A DNA stretch of 34,668 bases from Dehalococcoidia bacterium (GTDB taxonomy: Bacteria; Chloroflexota; Dehalococcoidia; UBA2979). Positions 10,311 through 24,110 of the stretch are shown here, in pieces (positions within the stretch are counted from its first letter, which is position 1; each line of letters begins with the position of its first letter). Position numbers and translations under genes: made by a program. Under the pieces are notes generated by a model. That model saw nothing but the letters and a program-made list of their open reading frames with translations. It was not told the DNA's origin and ran no database searches. The stretch lies in contig QZJI01000025.1 of assembly GCA_003599735.1 (NCBI GenBank), positions 1 through 34,668 on the forward strand, written 5' to 3'.

Positions 10311-11477
10311 TCAGATGTACGACAACGGGAGGAGCGTATCGCGGGGCTGATCCCCCAGCAACCGCCGGAGGATCGGCGTGGCGTTGTCGAGCGCCGTGAT
10401 CACCACGGTCCCGTCGCGCCACCCTGGGACGTTGCTGGGATGCCGCACCGTCAGCGGCAGGTTGGCGTAACGCCAACCGTCCTTGGACTCATCGTCGTCG
10501 AGGACGACCTCCATCGCACCGAGCCCACCGAGGTGGTAGGCAAGGTTCGGAAGCAACTGCGCGGCCCCGTATCCGGCCACAGGCAGGGTTGCCGCTGTGA
10601 GCAATTCACCCGTTGCCTCCGCCAGCCGGCGAAATTGCGCGTAACGCGCGAGGACACCTGCCCGCGTGACCACCGGCGCGCTGGGTGCTGCCGGACTCTC
10701 CCCGCTGGCACGCCGGAACGCAATCAAGATCGCCCCCCAGTGCTGGGGGTGCTCAACACTGGCGACATACTCCCCGCCGCACTCCGCGAGGAGCCTGAAC
10801 AGTGAAGCGCGCGAGAAGTACTGGAGATGGTGGTGGAAAATCTGGTCAAAGCGCAGCCGCCCCAGAAGCCGGTCAAACCCCGGGACTTCAAACACCAGGA
10901 GCCCATCGGCAGCGACGGCGTCGAGCGCCTGACGGATCACCGCGCGGGGGTCGGGGACATGCTCCAGCGTGTGCCGGCACAGCACGAGATCGACAGGCCC
11001 CCCCTCAAGGGCTGTCAGGTCGACGGCCTCGACGGTGGCCCCCAATACCACCACTCCCGGCTCGACAGGCGGGGGGGCATCGGCCCAGACGGGATCGATG
11101 CCGGTGCGTGCCCCAACGCGGCCCCCGATCTGCCGGAGCAAGTGCAGATCGTTGCAGCCGATGTCGACTGCGTGCCGAAACCGACGACCCGGCGCAACGC
11201 GCTCAAGAAAGTCGGTGAAGAACGCGGTCCCGGATTGCGCACAATGACTTGCCGCTGTGCGGAACGTGTAGTCACCGGCATAGAGTATTTCCGGGGGCAG
11301 GGCACGACCGAGCTGCGCATGCCCGCAGCCGTCGCAGAGAAGCAGTTCCTGATCTGCAGCCGTCGTCGCGGGTGCCGAGTGTCCGGGACGCAGATAGAGG
11401 CCAGTGAGCGGTAGCTGCGGTAGGGCGATGACCGAGGTCGATGGGCCGCCGCAGACCGCACAAGCAGAGACCTTCAT
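10311..11477 (-). CDS. Sugar C-methyltransferase with N-terminal zinc-binding domain (copy 2)
   Basis: This 388-residue protein is a clear paralogue of 5929-7122, with the same zinc ribbon (C6/C9 and C48/C51), SAM motif VDIGCND (104-110), CRHTLEH (167-173) and C-terminal VAGYGAAQ and LDDDESKDG segments. The notable difference is at the catalytic stretch, where copy 1 reads HEH and this copy reads HHH (215-217), losing the conserved glutamate. It is also richer in G+C (10861-10920 is 40/60). It may methylate another position, carry out another step, or be a weakened copy. ATG 11477 has no strong ribosome binding site but the zinc ribbon starts immediately. The 4,6-dehydratase-like gene lies 45 bp upstream. 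Confidence 0.87.
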   Translation of the reverse strand: MKVSACAVCGGPSTSVIALPQLPLTGLYLRPGHSAPATTAADQELLLCDGCGHAQLGRALPPEILYAGDYTFRTAASHCAQSGTAFFTDFLERVAPGRRFRHAVDIGCNDLHLLRQIGGRVGARTGIDPVWADAPPPVEPGVVVLGATVEAVDLTALEGGPVDLVLCRHTLEHVPDPRAVIRQALDAVAADGLLVFEVPGFDRLLGRLRFDQIFHHHLQYFSRASLFRLLAECGGEYVASVEHPQHWGAILIAFRRASGESPAAPSAPVVTRAGVLARYAQFRRLAEATGELLTAATLPVAGYGAAQLLPNLAYHLGGLGAMEVVLDDDESKDGWRYANLPLTVRHPSNVPGWRDGTVVITALDNATPILRRLLGDQPRDTLLPLSYI

Positions 11478-11522
11478 GCCCGGACCGTCCCCCGCGCCGT
11501 CCGAGGCGACCCCGCCCCACCA

Positions 11523-12527
11523 CTAAGCACGGTGGACATACTCAAGCGGCTCCCCCTGGATCGCGTCCCAGTGCTCATCCACCCAGCGCGCCACCGCCGC
11601 CAGACCCTCGTCGAGGCCCACCTCAGGCCGCCAGCCGAACTCCGTGCGGGCCCGCGTGGAATCGATCACGTACGCCGCATCCTGGCCCAGGCGCTCGCCC
11701 ACCTCACGCGTCGCCGTCGCGAAATCGCAACCCATCGCCACGCACATCCGCGCCACCACATCCCGCACCGCCACGCCCGCGTCCGGCGACAGGTGGTAAA
11801 GCAAACCGTCGCGCCCTCGCTCCATCGCTGCCAGCTCGCCGCGCGAGACATCGCGGATGTGGATGTACGACTTCACCGCATGCCCGCCCCCGTGCAACTC
11901 GATCGTCTTCCCGAGGCGCAGATAGATCGCCGTGCGCGGGATGATCTTGAACAACTGCTGGTGCGCGCCGTACACATTCGTCGCGCGGATCATCACCGCC
12001 GGGAACCCGAAGTTCTTCACGTAGGTCATCAACGAGAGGTCCCCGGCGGCCTTGCTCGCGGCATACGGCGTCGTCGGGTTCAGCGGCGCATCCTCCGTCA
12101 CCCGCCCCTCGCACGTCCCATATACCTCAGGCGACGAGATGTGCACGTAGCGACGCAGGTACCGCCGGTCCTTCAGCGCATTGAAGAGCGCCGTCAGCGC
12201 CACCGCATTCGTCTGGAACCACTGTTCAGGATGCTCCCAGGACGGGGCCACCTCACTCTGCGCCGCAAAGTTCACGATGAACGCCGGCTCGAACTCGTCG
12301 AGCGCCGCAAGCAGCGCCGGCTGGTCGTGGTTGAGGTCGGCCTGCATGAACCGGAAGTGGTCGCGTCCGTGGCGCAGGTAGGGGAGGAACAGCGGCCCCT
12401 TCTCCGGCGACCGCGACACCCCGAGCACCTCGTACCGCCCGGTCTCCAGCAGCAGGTCGACGAAGTCGCTCCCCGAGAACGAGTTGCTCCCGATGACCGC
12501 GACTCGCTCACGCTGGCCTGATGTCAT
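11523..12527 (-). CDS. NDP-sugar 4,6-dehydratase-like SDR
   Basis: This 334-residue extended SDR has GSNSFSGS (13-20) in place of the usual GxxGxxG, FAAQSEVAPSW (87-97) as in GDP-mannose and dTDP-glucose dehydratases, SSPEVYG (131-137), and catalytic Y155 and K159 (YAASK). The glutamate of the dehydratase triad (E134) is retained, but the aspartate found before it in RmlB is a proline here. It probably makes a 4-keto-6-deoxy sugar, the usual substrate of C-methyltransferases, which fits its place just upstream of one. Epimerase activity without dehydration is the alternative. ATG 12527 has GGGGAG upstream; the E1 beta gene stops 15 bp before. Confidence 0.85.
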   Translation of the reverse strand: MTSGQRERVAVIGSNSFSGSDFVDLLLETGRYEVLGVSRSPEKGPLFLPYLRHGRDHFRFMQADLNHDQPALLAALDEFEPAFIVNFAAQSEVAPSWEHPEQWFQTNAVALTALFNALKDRRYLRRYVHISSPEVYGTCEGRVTEDAPLNPTTPYAASKAAGDLSLMTYVKNFGFPAVMIRATNVYGAHQQLFKIIPRTAIYLRLGKTIELHGGGHAVKSYIHIRDVSRGELAAMERGRDGLLYHLSPDAGVAVRDVVARMCVAMGCDFATATREVGERLGQDAAYVIDSTRARTEFGWRPEVGLDEGLAAVARWVDEHWDAIQGEPLEYVHRA

Positions 12528-12542
12528 CTCAGCTCCCCGTGG

Positions 12543-13601
12543 CTAGAACGGCCCGCGGAACGAGGGGCTCGGCTGGTCGCCGTAGCCACTCTCCCGCCAT
12601 TGCGGAGGCACAGACTGCGGCGGCAGGCCGAGCATATCGCGGACGGTCGCGACGATCTCCGGCACACCGGGGTAGTACCGCTGCGCCGCCGGCCACGAGG
12701 TCGGCGTGTGCCGTTCCGGCAGCGTGATCCGCCGCGGCGCGGTGCTCAGCGACGCGTGCGCCTGCTCCGCGGCGATCGCCAGCACCTCGGAAGCGACGCC
12801 CGCGAAGCGCCAGCCGCCGTCGACGGCAAGGAGGCGGCGCGTGCGCCCCACGGAGGCAACGATCGCATGTTCATCGATCGGCTTGATCGAACGGAGGTCG
12901 ACCACCTCCGCCGAGACACCGTCCTCCGCCAGCCATTCCGCCGCGCGGAGCGCCTCCAGCGTCTGGTAGCCAGACGCCACCAGCGTGATATCGGAACCCT
13001 CTCGTGCCACGCGGGCCGCGCCAATCGGGACGGTGTAAGTCCCGGCCGGCACGTCGCCGACGACGCCGTGCAACCAGCGGTGCTCGATGTAGATGACGAC
13101 ATCGTCGTCCTGGACCGCGGCGGTAAGCAGGCCCTTCGCGTCATGGGGCGTCGAGGGCATCACGACCTTGAGGCCGGGGACGTGGCCGAACAGGGAGTGG
13201 AGGCTCTGCGAGTGCTGAGGCCCTTGCCCCCAACCTCGTCCGACCATCAGTCTGACGACCAGGGGCACGCGCATCTGACCGCCAAACATCGCGTGCCACT
13301 TTGCCGCGTTGTTGAACAATTGGTCGAGGGAAAGCAGGGCGAAGTCAACACGCTGATGCGTGAGGATCGGTCGCTGGCCCGCGATCGCGGATCCGATGGC
13401 GACGCCGGTCATCGCGTTTTCGGAGGCCGGCATGTCCAGCACGCGATCCACCCCGTACGCCTCCTGCAGGCCGGTCGTGGTGCCGAAGATCCCCTTTGGG
13501 TCGGGGACGCCGAGCCCCATGAGGTAGACGCGCGGGTCAGCCTGCAAACACTGGTCGGTCGCCTCGCGGATCGCGGCTGCGAACGTGATCTCCCGCGTCA
13601 C
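12543..13601 (-). CDS. TPP-dependent 2-oxoacid dehydrogenase E1 beta-like subunit
   Basis: This 352-residue protein resembles the beta subunit of pyruvate/acetoin dehydrogenase E1, with transketolase-type pyrimidine-binding and C-terminal domains. The conserved glutamate contacting TPP is E61 in DMPASENAMTG. It pairs with the alpha subunit immediately upstream (GTGA overlap, so GTG 13601 is the start). No lipoyl E2 or E3 gene is present, which argues against an ordinary 2-oxoacid dehydrogenase complex. Similar orphan pairs in sugar pathways (AviB1/AviB2 of avilamycin, from memory) transfer an acetyl unit from pyruvate onto a keto sugar. The last 40 or so residues form a proline- and serine-rich tail of unknown role. 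Confidence 0.85.
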   Translation of the reverse strand: MTREITFAAAIREATDQCLQADPRVYLMGLGVPDPKGIFGTTTGLQEAYGVDRVLDMPASENAMTGVAIGSAIAGQRPILTHQRVDFALLSLDQLFNNAAKWHAMFGGQMRVPLVVRLMVGRGWGQGPQHSQSLHSLFGHVPGLKVVMPSTPHDAKGLLTAAVQDDDVVIYIEHRWLHGVVGDVPAGTYTVPIGAARVAREGSDITLVASGYQTLEALRAAEWLAEDGVSAEVVDLRSIKPIDEHAIVASVGRTRRLLAVDGGWRFAGVASEVLAIAAEQAHASLSTAPRRITLPERHTPTSWPAAQRYYPGVPEIVATVRDMLGLPPQSVPPQWRESGYGDQPSPSFRGPF

Positions 13602-14608
13602 CGAGGATTCACCAGCGGTGATGCGTACGCCGCAGGCAAGTCCCGGTCCTCGGGAAACGGGCTGGCGAGGGCGAAGGCGAAGGCGTCGTCCACCTCTGCA
13701 GCGATCCGCAAGCGCGTCGCGTCGATGCTCGCCACCGTCGCCTCACCCGCCGCGATCACCCGCGCGGTCTCCCGCTCGACGGGACACCGCTCACGCCACA
13801 CCTCGAACTCCGCCTCGCTGCGGTAGCCGATGTCGTTGTCGTAGTTCGGCCCGCAGTGCTCCAGCCAGCGGTACGTCGACAGTTCGAGGAGTGTCGGGCC
13901 GTCGCCAGAGCGGGCGCGCGCGACCGCGCGCGTGGCAAGATCGCGCACCAGTCGCACATCATTCCCGTCACCCCGCTCCGCCGCGAGCCCCATCGACCGT
14001 CCGAGGGCGACGAGGTCGCGGCCGGCCGGCTGACGCACCTCGCGCGGCGAGTAGACGGAGTAGAGATTGTCCTCGCAGATGAACACAAGAGGCAGTCGGT
14101 GGAGCGCAGCGAAGTTGAGCGTTTCGTAGAAGACGCCCTCCTCGGTCGTCCCGTCGCCAAAAAAGACCGCCGTCACGCGGCCGTCGCCGCGCTGTTTCGA
14201 TGCGAACGCGACGCCCGCGCCGACAGGGATGCTGCCGCCGACGATCGGCGTGGATCCGAGGAAGCCCGCTTCCATGTCCACGAGGTGCATCGACCCGCCC
14301 ATGCCGCCTGAACACCCGGTGGCGCGTCCGTGGATCTCCGCGATCATCGCCCGGAGGTCGCCGCCCTTGGCGAGATAGTGCGCGTGCGCCCGGTGCGTGG
14401 ATAGCACCGCGTCACGACGGTCGAGGGCGCTGGCGACACCTACCGCCACGGCTTCCTGCCCGATGCTGAGGTGGACCGGACAGCGCATCTCCTCGTGGTG
14501 GTAGCGCGAGGCAATCGCTTCCTCCACCATCCGGATGCGCAGCATTCCGTAGAGGAGCGACTGGCCCACGTCGGCGGCGTCTGCGGGCCGGGCGGGAATC
14601 GTGCTCAC
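13598..14608 (-). CDS. TPP-dependent 2-oxoacid dehydrogenase E1 alpha-like subunit
   Basis: This 336-residue protein carries the TPP diphosphate/Mg motif GDGTTEEG (151-158) running to N181, plus HLSIGQEAV (46-54) and the glycine-rich GCSGGMGGSMH (98-108) of E1 alpha subunits. With the beta subunit it should form an alpha2beta2 enzyme that decarboxylates a 2-oxoacid and passes on the activated aldehyde. The region usually phosphorylated in E1 alpha is not clearly kept. GTG 14608 has GAGGAGG at five-base spacing. The neighbours are sugar epimerases and dehydratases rather than E2/E3, so the acceptor is more likely a sugar than lipoamide. Confidence 0.87.
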   Translation of the reverse strand: MSTIPARPADAADVGQSLLYGMLRIRMVEEAIASRYHHEEMRCPVHLSIGQEAVAVGVASALDRRDAVLSTHRAHAHYLAKGGDLRAMIAEIHGRATGCSGGMGGSMHLVDMEAGFLGSTPIVGGSIPVGAGVAFASKQRGDGRVTAVFFGDGTTEEGVFYETLNFAALHRLPLVFICEDNLYSVYSPREVRQPAGRDLVALGRSMGLAAERGDGNDVRLVRDLATRAVARARSGDGPTLLELSTYRWLEHCGPNYDNDIGYRSEAEFEVWRERCPVERETARVIAAGEATVASIDATRLRIAAEVDDAFAFALASPFPEDRDLPAAYASPLVNPR

Positions 14609-14628
14609 CGGGCCCTCCTCGTCGCGGC

Positions 14629-15639
14629 TCAGGCGAGCCCGAGGCGCTGCATACGGCGGATGTTGTAGTAGCGGTCGTCGGTCATCGCGCCCGGCACCAG
14701 CCCGGTGTCGAACGCGTGGACGAGGTCGCGCACGGCGTCCTCGATCGAGTGCTTCGGCTCGAAGCCCAGGACACGGGCGATCTTCGCGGATGAAATATGG
14801 TACGAGCGGTTGTCGTCCGTGGGCGTGCGACGGATCTCGACATCCTCGCCCACGACACGGCGCACCATCTCCGCGATCTGCATCACCGAGTGGTTTTCGT
14901 ACCCAGCGTTGAACACCTCACCGTCGACAAGGTCGTGCGGCCACTGGAGCGACTGGACATACAGGTCCATTACGTCGTCGATGTGGATGTTCGGCCGCAT
15001 CTGGTCGCCACCGAATACGTTGATCACGCGGTTATGGGCCGCGTGGTTCGTCAGGATATTTACCGCGAGGTCGAGCCGCAGCCGCGGCGAGTACCCGCAG
15101 ACCGTGGCGGGCCGCAGGATGATCGTCGTCCAGTCGGGCGAACGGTGTTCGAGCAGCAGCGACTCCCCCAGCGCCTTGTACTTCGAGTAGTCGGTGAGCG
15201 GCTCCAGTGGCAGCTCTTCTGTCACGTTCGGCTCTGCCTTGACGCCGTACACGCTCGACGACGAGGCGAACACGAACCGTCGGACGCCCGCCGCGCGAGC
15301 GGCATTGATCAGGAGCTCCATCGAGTCATAGTTGATCGATTTCCCGAGCTCCGGGTCGAGTTCGAATGACGGATCGTTCGAGATGCAAGCGAGGTGGATG
15401 ACGGCGGAGCAGCCCTCGACGGCACTGCGTACCGCTGCCGCGTCACGCAAGTCGCCGTGGATCTGCCGCAGGCCGGGATTGCCGGCAACGGGTGCGAGTG
15501 TGTCGCCGTAGATATAGAGGTCGAGCACGTTCACGTCGTACCCGGCGTCGAGGAGTCGCGGCACCAGCACGGACCCGACATATCCGGCGCCGCCGGTCAC
15601 GAGCACGCGCTCGCCAGGAGTGACCTCGCGCACGCTCAT
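14629..15639 (-). CDS. NAD-dependent nucleotide-sugar epimerase/dehydratase
   Basis: This 336-residue extended SDR has GGAGYVG (16-22), the SSSSVYG motif (126-132) and catalytic Y151 and K155 (YSKYK). HLACISNDPSFELDP (82-96) is characteristic of a subgroup of epimerases and dehydratases in glycan clusters. It acts on an NDP-sugar in the cytoplasm; the reaction (4-epimerisation, 4,6-dehydration or C4 reduction) cannot be fixed by eye. Its ATG overlaps the kinase stop by 4 nt. Because the kinase and the SIS isomerase lie directly upstream, modification of an NDP-heptose is a reasonable inference. Confidence 0.85.
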   Translation of the reverse strand: MSVREVTPGERVLVTGGAGYVGSVLVPRLLDAGYDVNVLDLYIYGDTLAPVAGNPGLRQIHGDLRDAAAVRSAVEGCSAVIHLACISNDPSFELDPELGKSINYDSMELLINAARAAGVRRFVFASSSSVYGVKAEPNVTEELPLEPLTDYSKYKALGESLLLEHRSPDWTTIILRPATVCGYSPRLRLDLAVNILTNHAAHNRVINVFGGDQMRPNIHIDDVMDLYVQSLQWPHDLVDGEVFNAGYENHSVMQIAEMVRRVVGEDVEIRRTPTDDNRSYHISSAKIARVLGFEPKHSIEDAVRDLVHAFDTGLVPGAMTDDRYYNIRRMQRLGLA

Positions 15640-16724
15640 TCACCTACCTCCGTCAGTAGCATCGTGATGTCGCGTTCGAGTGCCTCGCGGTCGACCGCGG
15701 TACGGTTCCCTACCACCGTCACCGCCTGTGCTCCCACAGCGTTGGCGATGAAGTTCACCGCGTCTGCCGGAACCCCCGCGGCTACGCACAGCGAGGCGAC
15801 GGCGAAGACGGCGTCCCCGGCGCCCATACGGTCCACGACGCGGAACGCGAGCGACGGGCATTCGTCGGTGCCGGCGGTGGTGTGGAGCAATGCTCCGGAC
15901 TTGCCGCGCGTCACCAACGTAGCCCGCGTGCCGAGGAGCCCGCTCAGCTCCTCCAGCAACCCGGGCAGGGGGCCTTCGCGGTCGCGCCGGTCGAGGCGGA
16001 TCTCGCGCTCCTGGATTGAGACAAAGTCGGCGCGCTGATACTTCGTGATGGTGTGGAAACCGAGGTTCGCCGAGTTCGTCTGCGCGTTGACCGCGAGGAA
16101 TCGTGCCCCACCCTCGATCGCCCGCGCCGCGGCCGGAGAGATCAAGCCATGCCCGAAGTCCGCCACAACCACAACATCGACCTGAGGCAGGAGTTCCTCT
16201 AGGTTCGCGAGGAACGCGGCCTCGTTGTCGATACCCAGTACGGAGTCGTTGAACTCGTAAACCTCAAGGAGGCGCGCCGCCGTGTAGTTGTCGATGAAAC
16301 GCCGTTTCACGATCGTCGGTGAGCCGGCCTTGTAGATGAACCGCGGCTGCACGTGCTCGTGCAGGTGCTCACGGATGAAGGCGTCTCGGCTCTCCCGCTC
16401 GCCCAACGCCGTCAGAAGATCGACGCGATTCGCGAAGGCGCCCGCATGGTTGGCGACCGCCACTGCCCCGCCGGCCTGTGACTCCTGTGACAGCGCGCGC
16501 ACGGCAATGACCGCGTCCTTCGCGGATTTCCCCATCGGCTCGACATAGGCGTATTCATCGATGATCGCCTCACCGATGACCGCAACCCGCCCGCCGGATG
16601 CGGCGTCCAGAAAACCAACCACATCCGATGCGGAGTACCGCCGCCGGAAATCGACGAGGTACCGGCGTGCCTCCGATGAGAGGTCCGACGCGAGAGTGTG
16701 GTGGGGCATGTGGTGGTCGCTCAC
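15636..16724 (-). CDS. PfkB/ribokinase-family sugar kinase (HldE N-domain-like)
   Basis: This 362-residue kinase has an early strand VAVIGEAIIDEY (47-58), the substrate-side glycine pair in AGGAVAVANHAG (84-95) and the ATP-site anion hole and base GAGD (301-304, D304 catalytic). The IDEY and GGA-x-A-x-A-N pattern is closest to the D-beta-D-heptose 7-phosphate kinase domain of HldE/RfaE. The cytidylyltransferase-like second domain of HldE is absent, and an extra 45 or so residues precede the fold. The start is GTG 16724 in a GTGA overlap with the upstream epimerase; ATG 16709 is an alternative. It would make heptose 1,7-bisphosphate for the GmhB-like phosphatase at 601-1194. Confidence 0.83.
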   Translation of the reverse strand: MSDHHMPHHTLASDLSSEARRYLVDFRRRYSASDVVGFLDAASGGRVAVIGEAIIDEYAYVEPMGKSAKDAVIAVRALSQESQAGGAVAVANHAGAFANRVDLLTALGERESRDAFIREHLHEHVQPRFIYKAGSPTIVKRRFIDNYTAARLLEVYEFNDSVLGIDNEAAFLANLEELLPQVDVVVVADFGHGLISPAAARAIEGGARFLAVNAQTNSANLGFHTITKYQRADFVSIQEREIRLDRRDREGPLPGLLEELSGLLGTRATLVTRGKSGALLHTTAGTDECPSLAFRVVDRMGAGDAVFAVASLCVAAGVPADAVNFIANAVGAQAVTVVGNRTAVDREALERDITMLLTEVGE

Positions 16725-17755
16725 GGACGCCCCCCCGCCGCTTCCGACGAGGCCCCAGCGACCGTGCGGTCTGTCCGTCCGAGATAGCGGAACCACTGGC
16801 GCGTCGCGGCGGCGATCGAGTCAGGCTCCCACACCGGAGCGTCTCGGAACTCCTCGATCTGTTCGAGGAGCAGGCCGACACCTTGATCTAACGACATCTC
16901 GGCCTGCCAGCCGAAATCCTCGCGGGCACGGGTGACGTCAGCGAAGGTGCAATCCGGTTCACCGGGGCGTCGCGGGATATGCACGGTAGGCCCACCGATA
17001 AGCGCGGCGATCCGGTTCACCGCGTACGTCCCGCCCGAGCCGATATTGTACACACGGCCCGTGATGGAGGATTCCGCGGCGAGCCGGAAGGCACGGGCCA
17101 CGTCCGTCACGTATGTGAAGTCGCGGGTCTGAGTGCCATCGCCAACAATCGTCAACGGCTTGACGTTCAGCCGTTGGGCGAGGAACACACCAAAGACGGC
17201 GCCGTACGTCCCGGTCGTCCGTGCCCGTGGTCCATATACATTAAATAGCCGCAACGAGAGTGCGGGAAGGCCGTAGCACTCCGCCCAGTGGAGCACGTAC
17301 TGCTCGCCCAGATACTTGGTGAGTGCGTAGGGGTACTGAGGCCGCGCCGGGGCGTCCTCCGGTGTCGGGTAGACATCAGGTATCCCGTAGCACGAAGAGG
17401 ACGCGGCATAGACAAACCGCCGCACTCCCGCGGCCCGGGCAGCCTCCAGCAACCGCACGGTGCCGTCGACGTTGGCCCGGTGGTAGTCGAGCGGACGTTC
17501 GATCGAGGGGACGATGTCCGTCAGCGCCGCAAGGTGGAATACCCAGTCCGCACCAGCCAGGAGGGGCGCGAGGGCTGCCTCGGTGATGTCGGCTTCGTGG
17601 AACTCGATCGGCGCCCCCGCGGATAGATCGGGAAGGTTCGACCGCCGTCCCGTCGAGAGGTTGTCGAGGACGACAACCTCGTGCCTGTGCGCGACCAGTT
17701 CGGCAACCAGGTGGCTACCGATGAAGCCAGCGCCTCCGGTGACGACGGCACGCAT
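16721..17755 (-). CDS. UDP-glucose/UDP-GlcNAc 4-epimerase-family protein
   Basis: This 344-residue extended SDR has GGAGFIG (7-13), an aspartate (D31) closing strand 2 for NAD, HLAALTDIVPSIERP (74-88), ASSSCYG (118-124) and catalytic Y143 and K147 (YALTK). SLRLFNVYGPRA further on is typical of GalE/WbpP-type epimerases. It probably interconverts C4 epimers of a UDP-sugar in the cytoplasm. It lies 6 bp after the GmhA-like gene and overlaps the kinase by 4 nt. The C-terminal 25 or so residues (serine-, alanine- and glycine-rich) extend beyond the usual fold. Confidence 0.87.
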   Translation of the reverse strand: MRAVVTGGAGFIGSHLVAELVAHRHEVVVLDNLSTGRRSNLPDLSAGAPIEFHEADITEAALAPLLAGADWVFHLAALTDIVPSIERPLDYHRANVDGTVRLLEAARAAGVRRFVYAASSSCYGIPDVYPTPEDAPARPQYPYALTKYLGEQYVLHWAECYGLPALSLRLFNVYGPRARTTGTYGAVFGVFLAQRLNVKPLTIVGDGTQTRDFTYVTDVARAFRLAAESSITGRVYNIGSGGTYAVNRIAALIGGPTVHIPRRPGEPDCTFADVTRAREDFGWQAEMSLDQGVGLLLEQIEEFRDAPVWEPDSIAAATRQWFRYLGRTDRTVAGASSEAAGGRP

Positions 17756-17761
17756 CGGCCG

Positions 17762-18352
17762 CTACCTGGCCGCTTGCCCCGCCGCGCTGGCGAGGGCGTC
17801 GCGCAACGCGAAGGTGATGAGGTGCATTGCGGCGCTATGGGCCGCCTCGACCACCCCATAGTGGTTCGACGGCACATGCAGCGATGCGTCAGCGAGCGCC
17901 TCAGCCTCGCCGCCGGCAAACCCGGTGAACGCGAAGGAGGCAATACCTAGCGCCCGTGCTTCATGGAGGGCCGCCACTACGTTCGGCGAGTTCCCGCTCC
18001 CCGTGATGACGACCAGGAGGTCGCCCGGGCGGGCGAGTGAGCGTAGCGGTTCCGCGAACACCCGGTCATACGCAGTGTCGTTTGCGAGAGCGGTCAGCAG
18101 GGCGGGGTTGTCACCGAGCGCAATCGCGCGGAGGGCACGGTTCCCGGCGGAGGCCGCGGTTTTCATCAGGTCGGTGGCGAAGTGGCTCGCGGCGCTCGCG
18201 CTTCCACCGTTGCCGCATACGTAGACAGTGCTGCCTCTCGCGTGAACCTGCATGAGGAAGTCGATGGCCTGTTCGAGACGTCCCAGGTCGAGGCCCTGGA
18301 CCGCGCCGACGTAGTCCACAAGCTGTTCCGCAAGGAGGTGGCGCTGGCTCAC
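17762..18352 (-). CDS. gmhA: Sedoheptulose-7-phosphate isomerase-like SIS protein
   Basis: This 196-residue single SIS-domain protein is the normal length for GmhA, which turns sedoheptulose 7-phosphate into D-glycero-D-manno-heptose 7-phosphate. It has CGNGGSASAASHFATDL (46-62) with H57, the phosphate loop TGSGNS (117-122), and H172 near the place of the catalytic histidine. D61 stands where E. coli GmhA has the catalytic glutamate E65, a conservative change that could alter activity. GTG 18352 is preceded by GGAGGG at three to four bases, and the long frame upstream lacks SIS features. It is the first gene of the long minus-strand locus, so the main promoter should lie between 18353 and about 18600. 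Confidence 0.83.
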   Translation of the reverse strand: MSQRHLLAEQLVDYVGAVQGLDLGRLEQAIDFLMQVHARGSTVYVCGNGGSASAASHFATDLMKTAASAGNRALRAIALGDNPALLTALANDTAYDRVFAEPLRSLARPGDLLVVITGSGNSPNVVAALHEARALGIASFAFTGFAGGEAEALADASLHVPSNHYGVVEAAHSAAMHLITFALRDALASAAGQAAR

Positions 18353-18938
18353 TGACCCTCCGCCGTGAACGGCATCCCGGCGAACGGAAGCGCCTGCTGG
18401 CCACGTCTCCTCGCCTCGATAACCGTAGACTACCACCGCCACATGGGACAGGCGCCGTGCCGCAAACGGGCGTCTGGGCTGGCATGTGAGACGGTCAGCA
18501 AAGCACACTCGCACCTACGACGTATCGAGTGATCGAGCGCCGCCTTCAGCCTCTTTGCGAGGTCGGCCTTCTCTGCATCAGTGAGGCGGGCTTCCGGTGG
18601 ACCAGGTGAATTGACGAGGCGGCGTCGAACCGTCGTGGGTCACTTCGGCCGTTTCGCGCGCGGCGTACGTCGCGGCCGACGCCGGCAGCCCACTCACGGC
18701 CTGCGCCAGCAAGGCGAGCAGCACGACGGCGAGACTCGCATGCCGGGGCAGCGTCCCCCAGCGGCACGCGCGGAGCGCCTCGGGCGTGGTGCGGAGCACT
18801 GGCCACCAGCGAGGTGCGGTCGCGACGACCACGACGAGGCAAAGCAACCGGGAGGCCCACCACGTACGTATCCCCAGGAGTCCCAGATTCACGATGCTGA
18901 CGACGGAACGCTGAAGGTGCCGCACTCGTTCCCACTAT
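18353..18938. other. Gap between the glycan locus and the lipoprotein gene
   Basis: No gene is certain here. The stretch just upstream of 18352 should hold the promoter of the minus-strand glycan locus, but I see no convincing -35/-10 pair. The only plausible coding piece is the small membrane ORF at 18578-18925. No tRNA, repeat or strong terminator hairpin was found. Confidence 0.5.
18578..18925 (-). CDS. Possible small membrane protein, unknown
   Basis: This 115-residue reading frame has two hydrophobic segments, roughly SRLLCLVVVVATAP (25-38) and HASLAVVLLALLAQAVSG (62-79), separated by a basic, tryptophan-containing loop, and it ends in a polar tail. Hydrophobic clustering of this kind is unusual for a shadow frame, which is why it is listed. 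Against it, the start is a GTG with only a weak GGGA upstream, and it lies 13 bp from the divergent lipoprotein start, leaving little room for two promoters. No family is recognised. Confidence 0.3.
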   Translation of the reverse strand: MRHLQRSVVSIVNLGLLGIRTWWASRLLCLVVVVATAPRWWPVLRTTPEALRACRWGTLPRHASLAVVLLALLAQAVSGLPASAATYAARETAEVTHDGSTPPRQFTWSTGSPPH

Positions 18939-20037: not shown

Positions 20038-20062
20038 CGATCCTCGTTAACGTTTGAAGCAG

Positions 20063-20197
20063 ACGCCAAAACTCAAGGTGCATGGGCGCCATGAGTACGG
20101 GGGAACCAACAACTGGGGCGTAACGGTCGAAGCCGGATGGCCGGGGACGACAGTGCGGGACCTCCACCCGTAGCCCGTCAGCTCACCTCGTCGGCGT
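20063..20197 (+). ncRNA. Cyclic-di-AMP riboswitch aptamer (ydaO/yuaA type)
   Basis: The leader of the membrane glycosyltransferase matches the ydaO/yuaA consensus as I remember it. P1 is ACGCC (20063-20067) with GGCGT (20193-20197). ACTCA (20071-20075) pairs with TGAGT (20092-20096), enclosing a small GGTGC/GCGCC hairpin. Then come the conserved ACGGGGGAACC (20097-20107), TGGGGCGTAAC (20114-20124), a variable hairpin and the highly conserved CCCGTCAGCTCACCTCG (20174-20190) immediately before P1. The aptamer binds two c-di-AMP molecules in known examples and usually turns the downstream gene off. The output here is the GT2-cupin pair. Confidence 0.88.
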
Positions 20198-20202
20198 AAG
20201 GA

Positions 20203-20222
20203 GGAACCCAGGAGAGGGTTCC
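20203..20222 (+). promoter_or_regulatory. Shine-Dalgarno-bearing hairpin between riboswitch and start codon
   Basis: GGAACCC (20203-20209) pairs perfectly with GGGTTCC (20216-20222). The loop AGGAGA holds the likely ribosome binding site, 12 bases before the TTG start. It begins six bases after the aptamer and could be its expression platform, acting on translation. A second purine-rich run, AAGGAGGA (20198-20205), overlaps the left arm and the aptamer end. Confidence 0.5.
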
Positions 20223-20226
20223 GCCA

Positions 20227-22029
20227 TTGATCAGTATTCCAGCCCTGGGTGCGCCCGTGCGTGCCCGGCGCGATGAACCTCAGACTGCCACGCCACCCTT
20301 GGGCCCCGACTCTCCGCAATGGTGGCGGGTGAGTGATGCGATCCCGCTCACCATGTCGGTGGCGCTTGCCTCCTCGGTGTTCTGGGCGCCATGGACGCAG
20401 ACGACCGCCGCGATCCTCGCGGTCTCGCTCACCGTGTTCTTCATCTACTGGGTGATCCGCTCGTATGCGGTCGGCGTCGCCGTGTGGGTCGGCCTGCGAC
20501 GCATCCGCGAGTGGACCGCCACAGACTGGCACGGCAAGTACGAGGCATGGTCACGCTCGCGCACGGATGCGCCGGCATGGGACTGGCCGTGCCACCTTGT
20601 CATTGTGCCCAACTACAAGGAGCACGAGGAAGGCCTGGCACGCACCCTCCGATCACTGGCGACCCAGGCGAACGCGCGGCAGGTTGTCGTGGCGCTCGCC
20701 ATGGAGGCGCGTGAGGCCGAAGCCCCCGGCAAGGCGGAGCGGCTCATCGCGCAGTTCCAGGGCGCGTTCGCCGGTATCTACGCGACCTTCCACCCGGCTG
20801 GCCTCCCTGGGGAGCTCGCCGGTAAAGGTTCGAACGAAGCTTGGGCAGCTCGTGAGATGTACACACGTCTTATCGAGGATGGCGGCGGCGACCTCGGCCG
20901 GTACACGGTCACATCGTGCGACGCGGACGCGGTCTTCCACCCGCGGCACTTCGTGGCCCTCAACTACCGGTTCCTCACAGCGGCGGACCGCTACCGGACA
21001 TTCTGGCAGCCGACGATCTTCAACTCGAACAACATCTGGGATATCCCCGCGCCGCTGCGGATCCCGGACGGGCTCTCCGGCATCAACCGCACCGCGAACC
21101 TGGTGCTCCCGTTCGCGGTGAAGTTCCCGACCTCCTGCTATTCCCTGTCGTGGTCGATGCTGCATGAGATTGACTACTGGGACGAAGAGGTCATTCCCGA
21201 GGACTGGCACGTCTATCTGAAGGCGTGCTTCACACTGGGCGACCGCGTGAACGTCGACCCGATCTACATCCCGCTCGGCAACGACTGCGTCCTGGCGCCG
21301 GGCGGGACATGGGCGACGCTGAAGGCGCACTACGAACAGTCGAAGCGTCACGCCTGGGGCGCGAGCGACATCACCTACGCCTGGAACGCGACCTTCCGCC
21401 GCGGGCCGCTGTCGGTCGGGCGGCGGCTGCTGTTGGCCCTGGCGCTCACGAAGACGCATGTCTTCTGGGTCGCGCAGTGGTACATCGTCACTCTCGGCAT
21501 CCTCGTCCCGGCAAAGATGTCAGGCACGTTCGGTGCGTCGATGCCGCTGTGGTGGACACACAAGGCGTTCAAGGTCCCTGGGCCCGGCTGGCACCCTGAG
21601 AATGTGGTCCACGTCGACAAGTGGCTCGCCTTCGACAAATCTGGTGTGGTCGAGCCCAACATGTGGCTGAATTTCAACGGACTATTGATCGCGATCTGCC
21701 TGCTGCCGCTGATCGCGCTGATCGTTTTCGAGACCCGCACCCGCCCGCCAAAACCGGACTGGGTGACGGGATGGGGCCTGCTGCGCCAATACGTGATGTG
21801 GCCGGCGATGGGTGTGATTACGTTTTTCTGGGCCAGCATGCCCGCCCTGCACGCCCAGTGGCGTCTCGCTGCCGGGAAGGGCCTGATCTACAAAGTGGCC
21901 GAGAAAGGCACCCGCCAGATGGTGGCCGCCGCGGAGGCCGCGCATCACTTGGCGACTGCGTCGCATGAAAACGTTCACGTCCGGCATCTTGAACCTGCCG
22001 AGGCAATGGTGGTGGAGGCTCGCTCATGA
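20227..22029 (+). CDS. Large membrane-bound family 2 glycosyltransferase
   Basis: This 600-residue protein has a processive-type GT2 layout. Two N-terminal membrane segments (about 40-90) precede a cytoplasmic GT-A domain with NYKEHEEGL (129-137), CDAD (231-234, the metal site), catalytic-base-like ED (325-326) and Q371, R374, W377 in a QxxRxxW motif resembling QxxRW. About four more membrane segments follow (400-430, 485-502, 518-540). This resembles cellulose- or hyaluronan-synthase relatives and bacterial membrane GT2 proteins of unknown product. The start is a TTG at 20227, 30 bp after the c-di-AMP aptamer and under its likely control. It overlaps the cupin gene by 4 nt. The product is probably an envelope glycan or glycolipid; donor unknown. 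Confidence 0.85.
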   Translation: MISIPALGAPVRARRDEPQTATPPLGPDSPQWWRVSDAIPLTMSVALASSVFWAPWTQTTAAILAVSLTVFFIYWVIRSYAVGVAVWVGLRRIREWTATDWHGKYEAWSRSRTDAPAWDWPCHLVIVPNYKEHEEGLARTLRSLATQANARQVVVALAMEAREAEAPGKAERLIAQFQGAFAGIYATFHPAGLPGELAGKGSNEAWAAREMYTRLIEDGGGDLGRYTVTSCDADAVFHPRHFVALNYRFLTAADRYRTFWQPTIFNSNNIWDIPAPLRIPDGLSGINRTANLVLPFAVKFPTSCYSLSWSMLHEIDYWDEEVIPEDWHVYLKACFTLGDRVNVDPIYIPLGNDCVLAPGGTWATLKAHYEQSKRHAWGASDITYAWNATFRRGPLSVGRRLLLALALTKTHVFWVAQWYIVTLGILVPAKMSGTFGASMPLWWTHKAFKVPGPGWHPENVVHVDKWLAFDKSGVVEPNMWLNFNGLLIAICLLPLIALIVFETRTRPPKPDWVTGWGLLRQYVMWPAMGVITFFWASMPALHAQWRLAAGKGLIYKVAEKGTRQMVAAAEAAHHLATASHENVHVRHLEPAEAMVVEARS

Positions 22030-22340
22030 CGACCCTGACGCAGCTGGGGTGGCGCACGATGGCGGACGACCATCGCTACCTGATCCGCGACATGGCGCTC
22101 GGTGACACCACCATCTCGGAGACGGTCCTGCACCCCGCGCAGAGCACGAGGGGGCACTCCCACCCGTGGCCAGAGGTCTACCTCTGCAACTCGGGTGCGG
22201 GCATGTTGTACCTGGACCACGATGCTGGCCACCCGCTGGTGCCGGGCTCGCGGTACATCATCCCTGGTGGTGTCCACCACCGCGTGTCAACCGTGACTGG
22301 CGTCACGTTCACTTGCGTCTTCGAAGGACCGCGCCGCTAG
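22026..22340 (+). CDS. Small single-domain cupin
   Basis: This 104-residue protein has a full cupin core. The metal ligands are H44, H46 and E50 in GHSHPWPE, and H84 or H85 in GGVHHR, with PGSRYIIPGG (73-82) leading into motif 2. It could be a sugar-phosphate isomerase/epimerase or a small metal-bound sensor; the sequence does not decide. Its ATG overlaps the glycosyltransferase stop (ATGA), so both share the c-di-AMP riboswitch, and a sugar-related activity supporting the glycosyltransferase is likely. A strong hairpin follows 25 bp after its stop. Confidence 0.82.
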   Translation: MTTLTQLGWRTMADDHRYLIRDMALGDTTISETVLHPAQSTRGHSHPWPEVYLCNSGAGMLYLDHDAGHPLVPGSRYIIPGGVHHRVSTVTGVTFTCVFEGPRR

Positions 22341-22365
22341 CTACCTGATCCAATCGCGCTCGGCC

Positions 22366-22390
22366 GAGGCCCGCCCATGAGGCGGGCCTC
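22366..22390 (+). terminator. Terminator-like hairpin after the GT2-cupin pair
   Basis: A perfect 10-bp stem, GAGGCCCGCC with GGCGGGCCTC, encloses the loop CATGA, 25 bp after the cupin stop. Only a short pyrimidine run (CTC) and no T-run follows, so termination may be weak or of the hairpin-only kind common in G+C-rich bacteria. Confidence 0.65.
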
Positions 22391-22526
22391 CTCATGTACG
22401 CGCACCTGTGCGCACGCCCCATAGGCGGCCAAGAAAATTTGCGGCGGCAGGGTGTGGTTGACTCTTCACCATGTGGGCTTCACCCGTTATCCTTCCGCCT
22501 AAGCGGGTGGGGTCGGAGTCCGGACT

Positions 22527-24110
22527 GTGGACCTCACTATGCTGCGCCCTCGGTCGATACCTCGCCGTGCGCGCACTTCGATGAGGCATGCTGCCGTGGC
22601 TTCCCTCATCTCCCTCTTGATGGGCTTCATGGGCCTCAGCTTCCCGATCCTGACCACCTTCGCTGAGGGGCCAGACATCGTCCGCGAGCAGAGTGCGTTG
22701 ATCGCCGCGGGCCGCGACCCGCTGCCCGCCGGTTCTATCGCCGTCGTCCGCGCGGACGGCGACTGCCTGCGCGTGCGCTCTGAGGCGAACCTGACAAGCA
22801 CACCGCTCGCTTGCGTCCCCACTGGCAGCACCGCGACCATCCTGCCGGCGACGCGCGACGCCGATGGCTACCGTTGGCAACTCGTCAGCGCGAGCGGGTT
22901 CACCGGCTGGGTTGCCGATGTCTATCTCGCCCTGTCCAGCGGCACGACATCACCATCGAGTGGCGGCGCATCCGGTCCATCCGCCGTCTCGTCATCAGCG
23001 GGGGCCGCGGCCTGCGTCAACAGCATTGCTTCCGTGAAGCCGGGACTGAATACATCGCTATCGCCGGTGGGCCTGAACCTCGTGCTCTGGGGCGGCGGCA
23101 CGATGAATGCGCTGGCGACGGCGACCGAGGCCCAGGGCTGCAGGATCACGGCGATCTACGCGAACCGTCCGGGCGGTGGATCGCTCGTCTCGTACTTGGT
23201 GGGGGTACCGGATTTCGTGAACGCGGAATGGCAGTCCGTGTTTGCCGGCGGACGGATCCCGGCGGGGACGGCGCTCATGTTGATCTGCGGTGCCACGGGG
23301 ACGCAGGCCGTAGTCTCCGTCCCGACACCGGCATCGGCCGTGCCCGCCCCACGTAAGATCGGCCTGAAACCCGCTCCATTGGTAAGTGCGGCGGCCATCG
23401 CCATCATTGACGGCGACTCAGGCGCGCTGCTGTACGACAAGAACGCGACCACCCCACGGCCGCCGGCCAGCCTGACAAAGATCGCGACAGCAATCCTCGC
23501 GGTCGAAGGGACGGAGCTGTCCTCCGGCGTCACCGTGGACGTGGACGGCCCGCGGATGGCGGCGCGGGACGGCAGCAGCGTCATGGGCCTGCGCCCCGGC
23601 GACTGCTATAGCATGGCCGACCTGCTCTATGGCCTCATGCTCCCCTCCGGCAACGACGCTGCGATCGCGATCGCGAAGTACGAGGCGGGGAGCGAGGCGG
23701 CGTTCGTCAAGCAAATGAACACGCTGGTGCGGCGGATGGGCCTGACCGGCACTATGTTCACCGACCCGCACGGTCTTGGTTCACCGCAGCACCGGAGCAC
23801 CGCCTACGACCTGGCAATGATGGCGCGGTACGGGATGACACTGCCGCAGTTCCGCGAAGTGGTGGGCGCACCATTGCGGACGACCAGTGGCTCGCGCAGC
23901 ATTCCGCTGTACAACACGAACGCCCTGCTCCGGCGCTACCCAGGCGTCGACGGCGTGAAGACGGGGTTCACCGAAGAGGCGGGCCGCACGATCGTGGTGT
24001 CTGCGGTCAGGAATGGCCACCGCGTCTTCGTCGCCCTGTTGAATGACCAGAACCGCGATGATAGTGCGGTGTCTCTCCTCGACTGGGTATTCCAAAACCA
24101 CCAGTGGTAG
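22527..24110 (+). CDS. Secreted D-alanyl-D-alanine carboxypeptidase (peptidase S11) with SH3 domain
   Basis: This 527-residue protein starts with a basic stretch and a hydrophobic signal segment (about 22-45). An SH3b-like domain follows (about 68-135: CLRVRSEAN, GWVADVYLA), then a serine/glycine linker, a domain of unknown type (about 163-255), and the S11 penicillin-binding catalytic domain (about 285-527). Catalytic motifs are complete: SLTK (S315, K318), SGN (374-376) and KTG (478-480). It trims the terminal D-Ala from peptidoglycan stems outside the membrane. GTG 22527 has GGAG at eight bases; ATG 22539 is an alternative. No C-terminal membrane anchor is visible, so the SH3 domain may hold it at the wall. 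Confidence 0.9.
   Translation: MDLTMLRPRSIPRRARTSMRHAAVASLISLLMGFMGLSFPILTTFAEGPDIVREQSALIAAGRDPLPAGSIAVVRADGDCLRVRSEANLTSTPLACVPTGSTATILPATRDADGYRWQLVSASGFTGWVADVYLALSSGTTSPSSGGASGPSAVSSSAGAAACVNSIASVKPGLNTSLSPVGLNLVLWGGGTMNALATATEAQGCRITAIYANRPGGGSLVSYLVGVPDFVNAEWQSVFAGGRIPAGTALMLICGATGTQAVVSVPTPASAVPAPRKIGLKPAPLVSAAAIAIIDGDSGALLYDKNATTPRPPASLTKIATAILAVEGTELSSGVTVDVDGPRMAARDGSSVMGLRPGDCYSMADLLYGLMLPSGNDAAIAIAKYEAGSEAAFVKQMNTLVRRMGLTGTMFTDPHGLGSPQHRSTAYDLAMMARYGMTLPQFREVVGAPLRTTSGSRSIPLYNTNALLRRYPGVDGVKTGFTEEAGRTIVVSAVRNGHRVFVALLNDQNRDDSAVSLLDWVFQNHQW

Follow-up and report, generated by a model that had tools for sequence, protein, structure and literature searches.

A c-di-AMP riboswitch of the ydaO/yuaA class is predicted in the leader of an mRNA that encodes a membrane glycosyltransferase of family GT2 (hereafter GT) and a cupin in a Dehalococcoidia bacterium. 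We consider it likely that the switch acts at the level of translation, in the OFF direction, and that its target is an envelope-glycan synthase of the hyaluronan/cellulose-synthase fold group. The window, i.e., the whole stretch of DNA that was analysed, comprises 34,668 nucleotides (contig QZJI01000025.1) and belongs to a genome of 2.01 Mb that is 70% complete. Class membership and the fixed link with the GT are shown by comparison of related sequences, as are the pseudoknot, a hairpin at the start codon and the terminator of the sister branch; from these, and by analogy with tested switches, we infer the translational OFF mode. The wider proposal has about an even chance of being right: c-di-AMP would directly control envelope polysaccharide synthesis by means of a riboswitch and a synthase that form a dedicated pair, no younger than the divergence of the two GT branches, and in the Dehalococcoidia a terminator would have been converted to a Shine-Dalgarno-masking pseudoknot and a start-codon hairpin.

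c-di-AMP is an osmotic-stress messenger of many bacteria. The pairing described here would be a direct, deeply conserved wire from this messenger to one membrane glycosyltransferase and, given that it is kept across a large Chloroflexota group, an envelope sugar polymer appears to be a likely target of the osmotic-stress signal. Until now, c-di-AMP had been connected with envelope glycans only indirectly, e.g., by the cglA-disA suppression in Streptomyces (PMC11481543).

The riboswitch in the window

The original prediction of a c-di-AMP riboswitch was borne out by a cmscan search of the whole window, in which the Rfam model RF00379 gave a single match over threshold (Table 1), with 57.2 bits (the gathering score being 38), an E-value of 6.7e-11 and full-length coverage of the model (1-134). 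The landmarks that had been named, i.e., P1, the GGGGAACC-like and TGGGGCG-like loops and the near-invariant CCCGTCAGCTCACCTCG, had been placed correctly, the last three being located at 20100-20107, 20114-20120 and 20174-20190, respectively. The conserved core (CAGCUAACCUCG, GGGGAACC, GGGG..) is complete except for one letter, a C at position 20184 where the consensus has A (CAGCU[A]ACC); this is probably tolerated, because the same change also occurs before unrelated targets in the window's family (GT4, nucleotidyltransferase). The match is not a chance one, since the genome has only three RF00379 sites and all close relatives for which upstream DNA is available have one before the GT. By its sequence, the window RNA is a further member of the known class, sharing P1, the core motifs and a loop-to-3'-tail pseudoknot with the crystallised aptamer.

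Table 1 Features of the riboswitch-GT locus in window coordinates
Feature	Position	Strand	Basis
c-di-AMP (ydaO/yuaA) riboswitch aptamer RF00379 with 3' flank	20054..20210	+	cmscan
P1 5' strand ACGCC, partner GGCGT 20193-20197	20063..20067	+	Rfam consensus structure; fold
GGGC, partner GCCC 20173-20176	20116..20119	+	aptamer alignment; 4QLM sequence printed in PMC5393176
Aptamer loop CCTCC, anti-Shine-Dalgarno-like, predicted pseudoknot partner of GGAGG 20200-20204	20161..20165	+	loop/tail complementarity vs swaps
P1 3' strand GGCGT	20193..20197	+	Rfam consensus structure; fold
GGAGG, Shine-Dalgarno-like and 3' half of class pseudoknot	20200..20204	+	sequence; loop/tail complementarity
Hairpin GGAACCC-AGGAGA-GGGTTCC without U-tract, 4 nt ahead of the start codon; putative platform for translational control	20203..20222	+	folding of related leaders
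Membrane GT2 glycosyltransferase, 600 aa, TTG start; D232-A-D234, E325-D326-W327, Q371xxR374HAW377	20227..22029	+	Pfam; invariant motifs; AlphaFold; Foldseek
Cupin, 104 aa, overlaps GT stop by 4 nt	22026..22340	+	Pfam Cupin_2 28.2 bits; tblastn over loci

Conserved association with the GT

The GT gene begins 16 nt after the RF00379 match in the window. RF00379 is present in 41 of the 44 genomes of the window's GTDB family; 19 of the family genomes have the GT, and the riboswitch is directly upstream on the same strand in all 19. A scan of named genomes gave 25 loci with the GT, each of them in Dehalococcoidia, other Chloroflexi or bacterium metagenome assemblies, and RF00379 lies just upstream in 24 of them, counts that overlap with those for the family since some assemblies are shared; the exception (L048) starts only 102 nt before the match, so that the upstream DNA is absent. 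In a class-wide search the GT was found in 64 of 393 genomes, which fall into two groups: families f1 and f33 contain close orthologues, and the second group consists of remoter relatives scoring 400-470 bits. The riboswitch was present at 18/18 loci tested in f33, a second family whose assemblies are partly the same as those of the named loci, and before 17 of 22 distant-branch genes, with 64-96 bits, the other five being without it. Before GT homologues from the rest of the phylum it was found in 0 of 20, and the linkage is therefore specific to the class and does not simply come with membership of the GT family.

Both genes of the predicted output were recognized by Pfam, the GT as Glyco_trans_2_3 (32.9 bits, cut-off 27) and the cupin as Cupin_2 (cut-off 27.2 bits). 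They had been proposed as a controlled pair, of which the GT holds as the conserved target, judged from the sequences compared, and the cupin does not, because it accompanies the GT as a passenger, and in part of the clade only. Gene neighbours vary between families, and g1, g8 and g16 are the only genera in which the cupin adjoins the GT; hence, the riboswitch follows the GT and not the locus. On this comparative evidence the riboswitch-GT link is evolutionarily fixed. The contrast that had been drawn with potassium transporters and wall hydrolases also stands. The riboswitch accompanies the GT through two branches and two expression platforms.

Some related leaders depart from this arrangement. 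Two loci of one genome (L137 and L141) have aptamer and hairpin leaders of the GT2 type without a GT2 gene behind them, one being upstream of an inositol-monophosphatase-like ORF; these were possibly orphaned by loss of the GT. At a distant-branch locus (L179, G110:C183), a second partial aptamer-like core (CCCGGCAGCTAACCTCGTAGGCGTA) was observed after position 882, past the first riboswitch and terminator and before the GT, a possible tandem c-di-AMP riboswitch. A c-di-GMP-II-GAG riboswitch (58.8 bits) at 1606-1695 of L217 (G542:C165) was dropped as a GT leader element, as it lies on the strand opposite the outgroup GT homologue and outside the GT leader.

The glycosyltransferase and its probable product

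The DAD, EDW and QxxRHAW motifs of the GT are invariant, and the ED-W residues remain nearly so when the distant branch and outgroups are added; these motifs mark an intact GT2 enzyme. An AlphaFold model built from a 33-sequence alignment (pLDDT 84.9, pTM 0.83) has a membrane-embedded GT-A fold with several transmembrane segments, and among solved structures its best Foldseek matches were hyaluronan synthase (8smm, E 4.5e-10) and BcsA (4p00, E 2.1e-9), both with a probability of 1.00 but with TM scores of only about 0.3-0.5. The DxD, ED and QxxR..W-type motifs of the GT resemble those of these enzymes, and membrane helices likewise flank its GT domain on both sides. It differs from them in that identity is only 11-15%, the W of QxxRW is displaced by two, no sequence-profile match was obtained among PDB chains and no PilZ domain was found in the Pfam scan. 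The model supports a membrane synthase of the putatively processive (hyaluronan/cellulose-synthase) group. The original prediction of a processive enzyme making an envelope glycan is thus upheld as far as the predicted fold and the motifs go.

The other targets of the riboswitch bear on the nature of this product. The first gene after each of the 76 RF00379 sites in the family was listed, giving 40 zinc-ribbon proteins of about 70 aa, 19 GT2 enzymes of the window type, four GT4 glycosyltransferases, three di-myo-inositol-phosphate-synthase-like nucleotidyltransferases, three KamA-like aminomutases, two trehalose-phosphate synthases, two family-5 solute-binding proteins and three without assignment. 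The riboswitches thus also stand directly before probable compatible-solute synthesis genes, which were named by profile with several scores below curated cut-offs: OtsA/OtsAB (L083, L098) matched NCBIfam PRK14501 with 752 bits, above the cut-off; the di-myo-inositol-phosphate-synthase-like proteins (L079, L092, L120) matched NF041135 with 260 bits, below it; and the KamA-like sites are L118, L121 and L126. Together, envelope glycosyltransferases and probable compatible-solute enzymes fit the known osmotic role of c-di-AMP.

The resemblance of these targets to solute synthesis, along with the weak likeness of the cupin to ectoine synthase, would also suit a chiefly compatible-solute regulon in which the GT makes a small osmolyte glycoside or a glycolipid instead of a long envelope polysaccharide. 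We regard this as unlikely, as the transmembrane segments and the hyaluronan/cellulose synthase fold indicate an envelope product, the QxxR..W motif is like that of processive GT2 enzymes and the second switch of the genome itself sits before a GT4. An envelope glycan is thus the preferred product. Conserved neighbours were also sought as a clue to it, and none was common to different families.

Several further observations were made on these loci. The second switch of the genome (L073, C5:44934-45068) is its best-scoring site, with 86.6 bits, and the riboswitch-GT4 pairing was seen in four of five genomes of the window's genus. The commonest target in the family, the zinc-ribbon protein (MLQSPPPKKCPRCRGLMIVEDDWYGK...; L102, L089, L093 and 37 other loci), matched no Pfam family above cut-off, and in its leaders a second conserved hairpin (CCGGCGGGATGCCGG-like) lies downstream of the aptamer and ahead of the start codon. 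In the window, the third gene (22527-24110) encodes an SH3_3 and Peptidase_S11 D,D-carboxypeptidase, separated from the cupin by an inverted repeat rich in G+C that was placed by eye at about 22365-22400. On the minus strand at 10311-18514, near the riboswitch locus, there is a sugar-nucleotide/polysaccharide-type cluster with an SIS isomerase, an HldE-like kinase, several epimerases/dehydratases and a PDH-E1-like pair.

The probable expression platform

The two branches of the GT differ in what follows the aptamer. In the distant branch, an intrinsic terminator immediately after the aptamer was found in 16 of 17 leaders, compared with 18% of shuffles, and the GT start is further downstream. 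Terminators were not enriched in the window's branch (4/32 leaders), and the window leader has no hairpin with a U-tract after the aptamer, as a ydaO-type terminator platform would. The start codon in the window's branch is about 16-22 nt from the aptamer match and a short hairpin with a mean z of -2.5, whose end lies between -2 and +5 nt relative to the start codon, was found in 24/24 leaders; its structure is kept while its sequence changes. These hairpins were called by per-sequence folding, chosen over alignment folding since arm length varies; for the same reason, RNAalifold on a MAFFT alignment of the leaders gave only three pairs. After the hairpin, the window's genus has TTG as the start codon, g8 has CTG and the others have ATG. 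In the g8 leaders L119, L122, L130, L135 and L139, the CTG apparently lies right behind the platform hairpin; CTG and TTG are weak start codons at a regulated site.

The loop-to-tail pseudoknot of the class, visible in the printed sequence of the crystallised aptamer (CUCCUUCG/CGAAGGAG) (PMC5393176), is formed in the window by CCUCC and the GGAGG after P1. Over 105 aptamers, loop/tail complementarity was 14.08, compared with 11.34 ± 0.23 for swapped pairs, and for GT leaders of the window's family it was 13.49 against 12.31 ± 0.36, none of 500 swaps being as high in either set. GGAGG is the partner in the window's genus and the pair changes jointly to CUUCC/GGAAG in sister genera. In f33 the pairing was not above swaps, the hairpin being kept and the pseudoknot not. 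The pairing and its joint change fit a direct masking of the ribosome-binding region, as far as sequences can suggest it. A pairing of the aptamer's GGGGAACC with the GGUUCC of the hairpin was dropped, as genera with GGGCUUUCC hairpins keep GGGGGAACC unchanged.

At high c-di-AMP, P1 would close and the loop CCUCC would pair with GGAGG, so that the pseudoknot and the hairpin next to the TTG start would jointly hide the ribosome-binding region and neither GT nor cupin would be made (OFF). With falling c-di-AMP the region would open and the GT would be made; as a membrane synthase, it would build or lengthen an envelope glycan and in this way take part in osmotic and turgor adaptation. In other bacteria, c-di-AMP falls, e.g., under potassium limitation.

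A switch of the opposite sense is also conceivable, in that a ligand-stabilised pseudoknot could capture the 5' arm of the terminator or hairpin and so turn expression ON. The pseudoknot tail does overlap the 5' arm of the downstream hairpin in both branches, and in the window pseudoknot and hairpin may compete. Nevertheless, the overlap in the window is only 2 nt (20203-20204), the tail itself is Shine-Dalgarno-like and all tested c-di-AMP riboswitches named in three reports are OFF switches (PMC9960051, PMC6488665, PMC11481543), which makes the ON reading quite improbable.

The translational OFF reading has a precedent in nlpC of C. glutamicum, whose c-di-AMP switch was found by experiment to be translational and OFF and for which a CTCC/GGAG pseudoknot was proposed by the authors (PMC9960051). 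As in the window, there is no terminator and CTCC of the aptamer is complementary to GGAG of the ribosome-binding site; unlike in the window, the target is a wall peptidase, and the window's branch adds a conserved start-codon hairpin and comparative support for the pairing. CCUCC/GGAGG thus provides such support for a mechanism only proposed in C. glutamicum. The distant branch has the same aptamer-terminator layout as Bacillus ydaO/kimA and kdpFABC (PMC9960051, PMC6488665), although the Dehalococcoidia target is not a potassium transporter and the window's own branch is without a terminator. The two GT branches naturally lend themselves to comparing how one aptamer works with a transcriptional and with a translational platform.

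The targets of the class named in the publications consulted are wall hydrolases and transporters of potassium, osmoprotectants and amino acids, unlike the membrane GT2 of the window, which is apparently an unreported target. In the open literature searched, a membrane GT2 was not found as a dedicated, deeply conserved target, though the pairing may already appear, uncommented, among the targets in the supplement of Nelson et al. 2013, and no study of c-di-AMP riboswitches in Dehalococcoidia or the phylum Chloroflexota was found.

Ligand and c-di-AMP supply

c-di-AMP is well supported as the predicted ligand by the aptamer alignment, in which the GGGC...GCCC core of GT-linked aptamers is a compensatory replacement of GGGU...ACCC. 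The outer C-G pair of the window stands in for the U-A of most relatives, and the same letters are present in the crystallised c-di-AMP-binding ydaO aptamer (4QLM; PMC5393176). A variant aptamer for another ligand, to which the C at 20184, the branch-specific core letters and a window score below that of many family members (70-96 bits) might point, was rejected as very improbable, as the odd core letters are this compensatory pair common to the crystallised aptamer, the low score accompanies long peripheral loops and the distant branch scores high before the same gene. No diadenylate cyclase was found in the window's own genome, probably owing to its incompleteness. The diadenylate cyclase (DAC) domain was found in 38 of 44 genomes of the family (the 15 good-quality ones all have it), in three of four congeners of the window's genome and in all 20 further genomes of the class that were checked.
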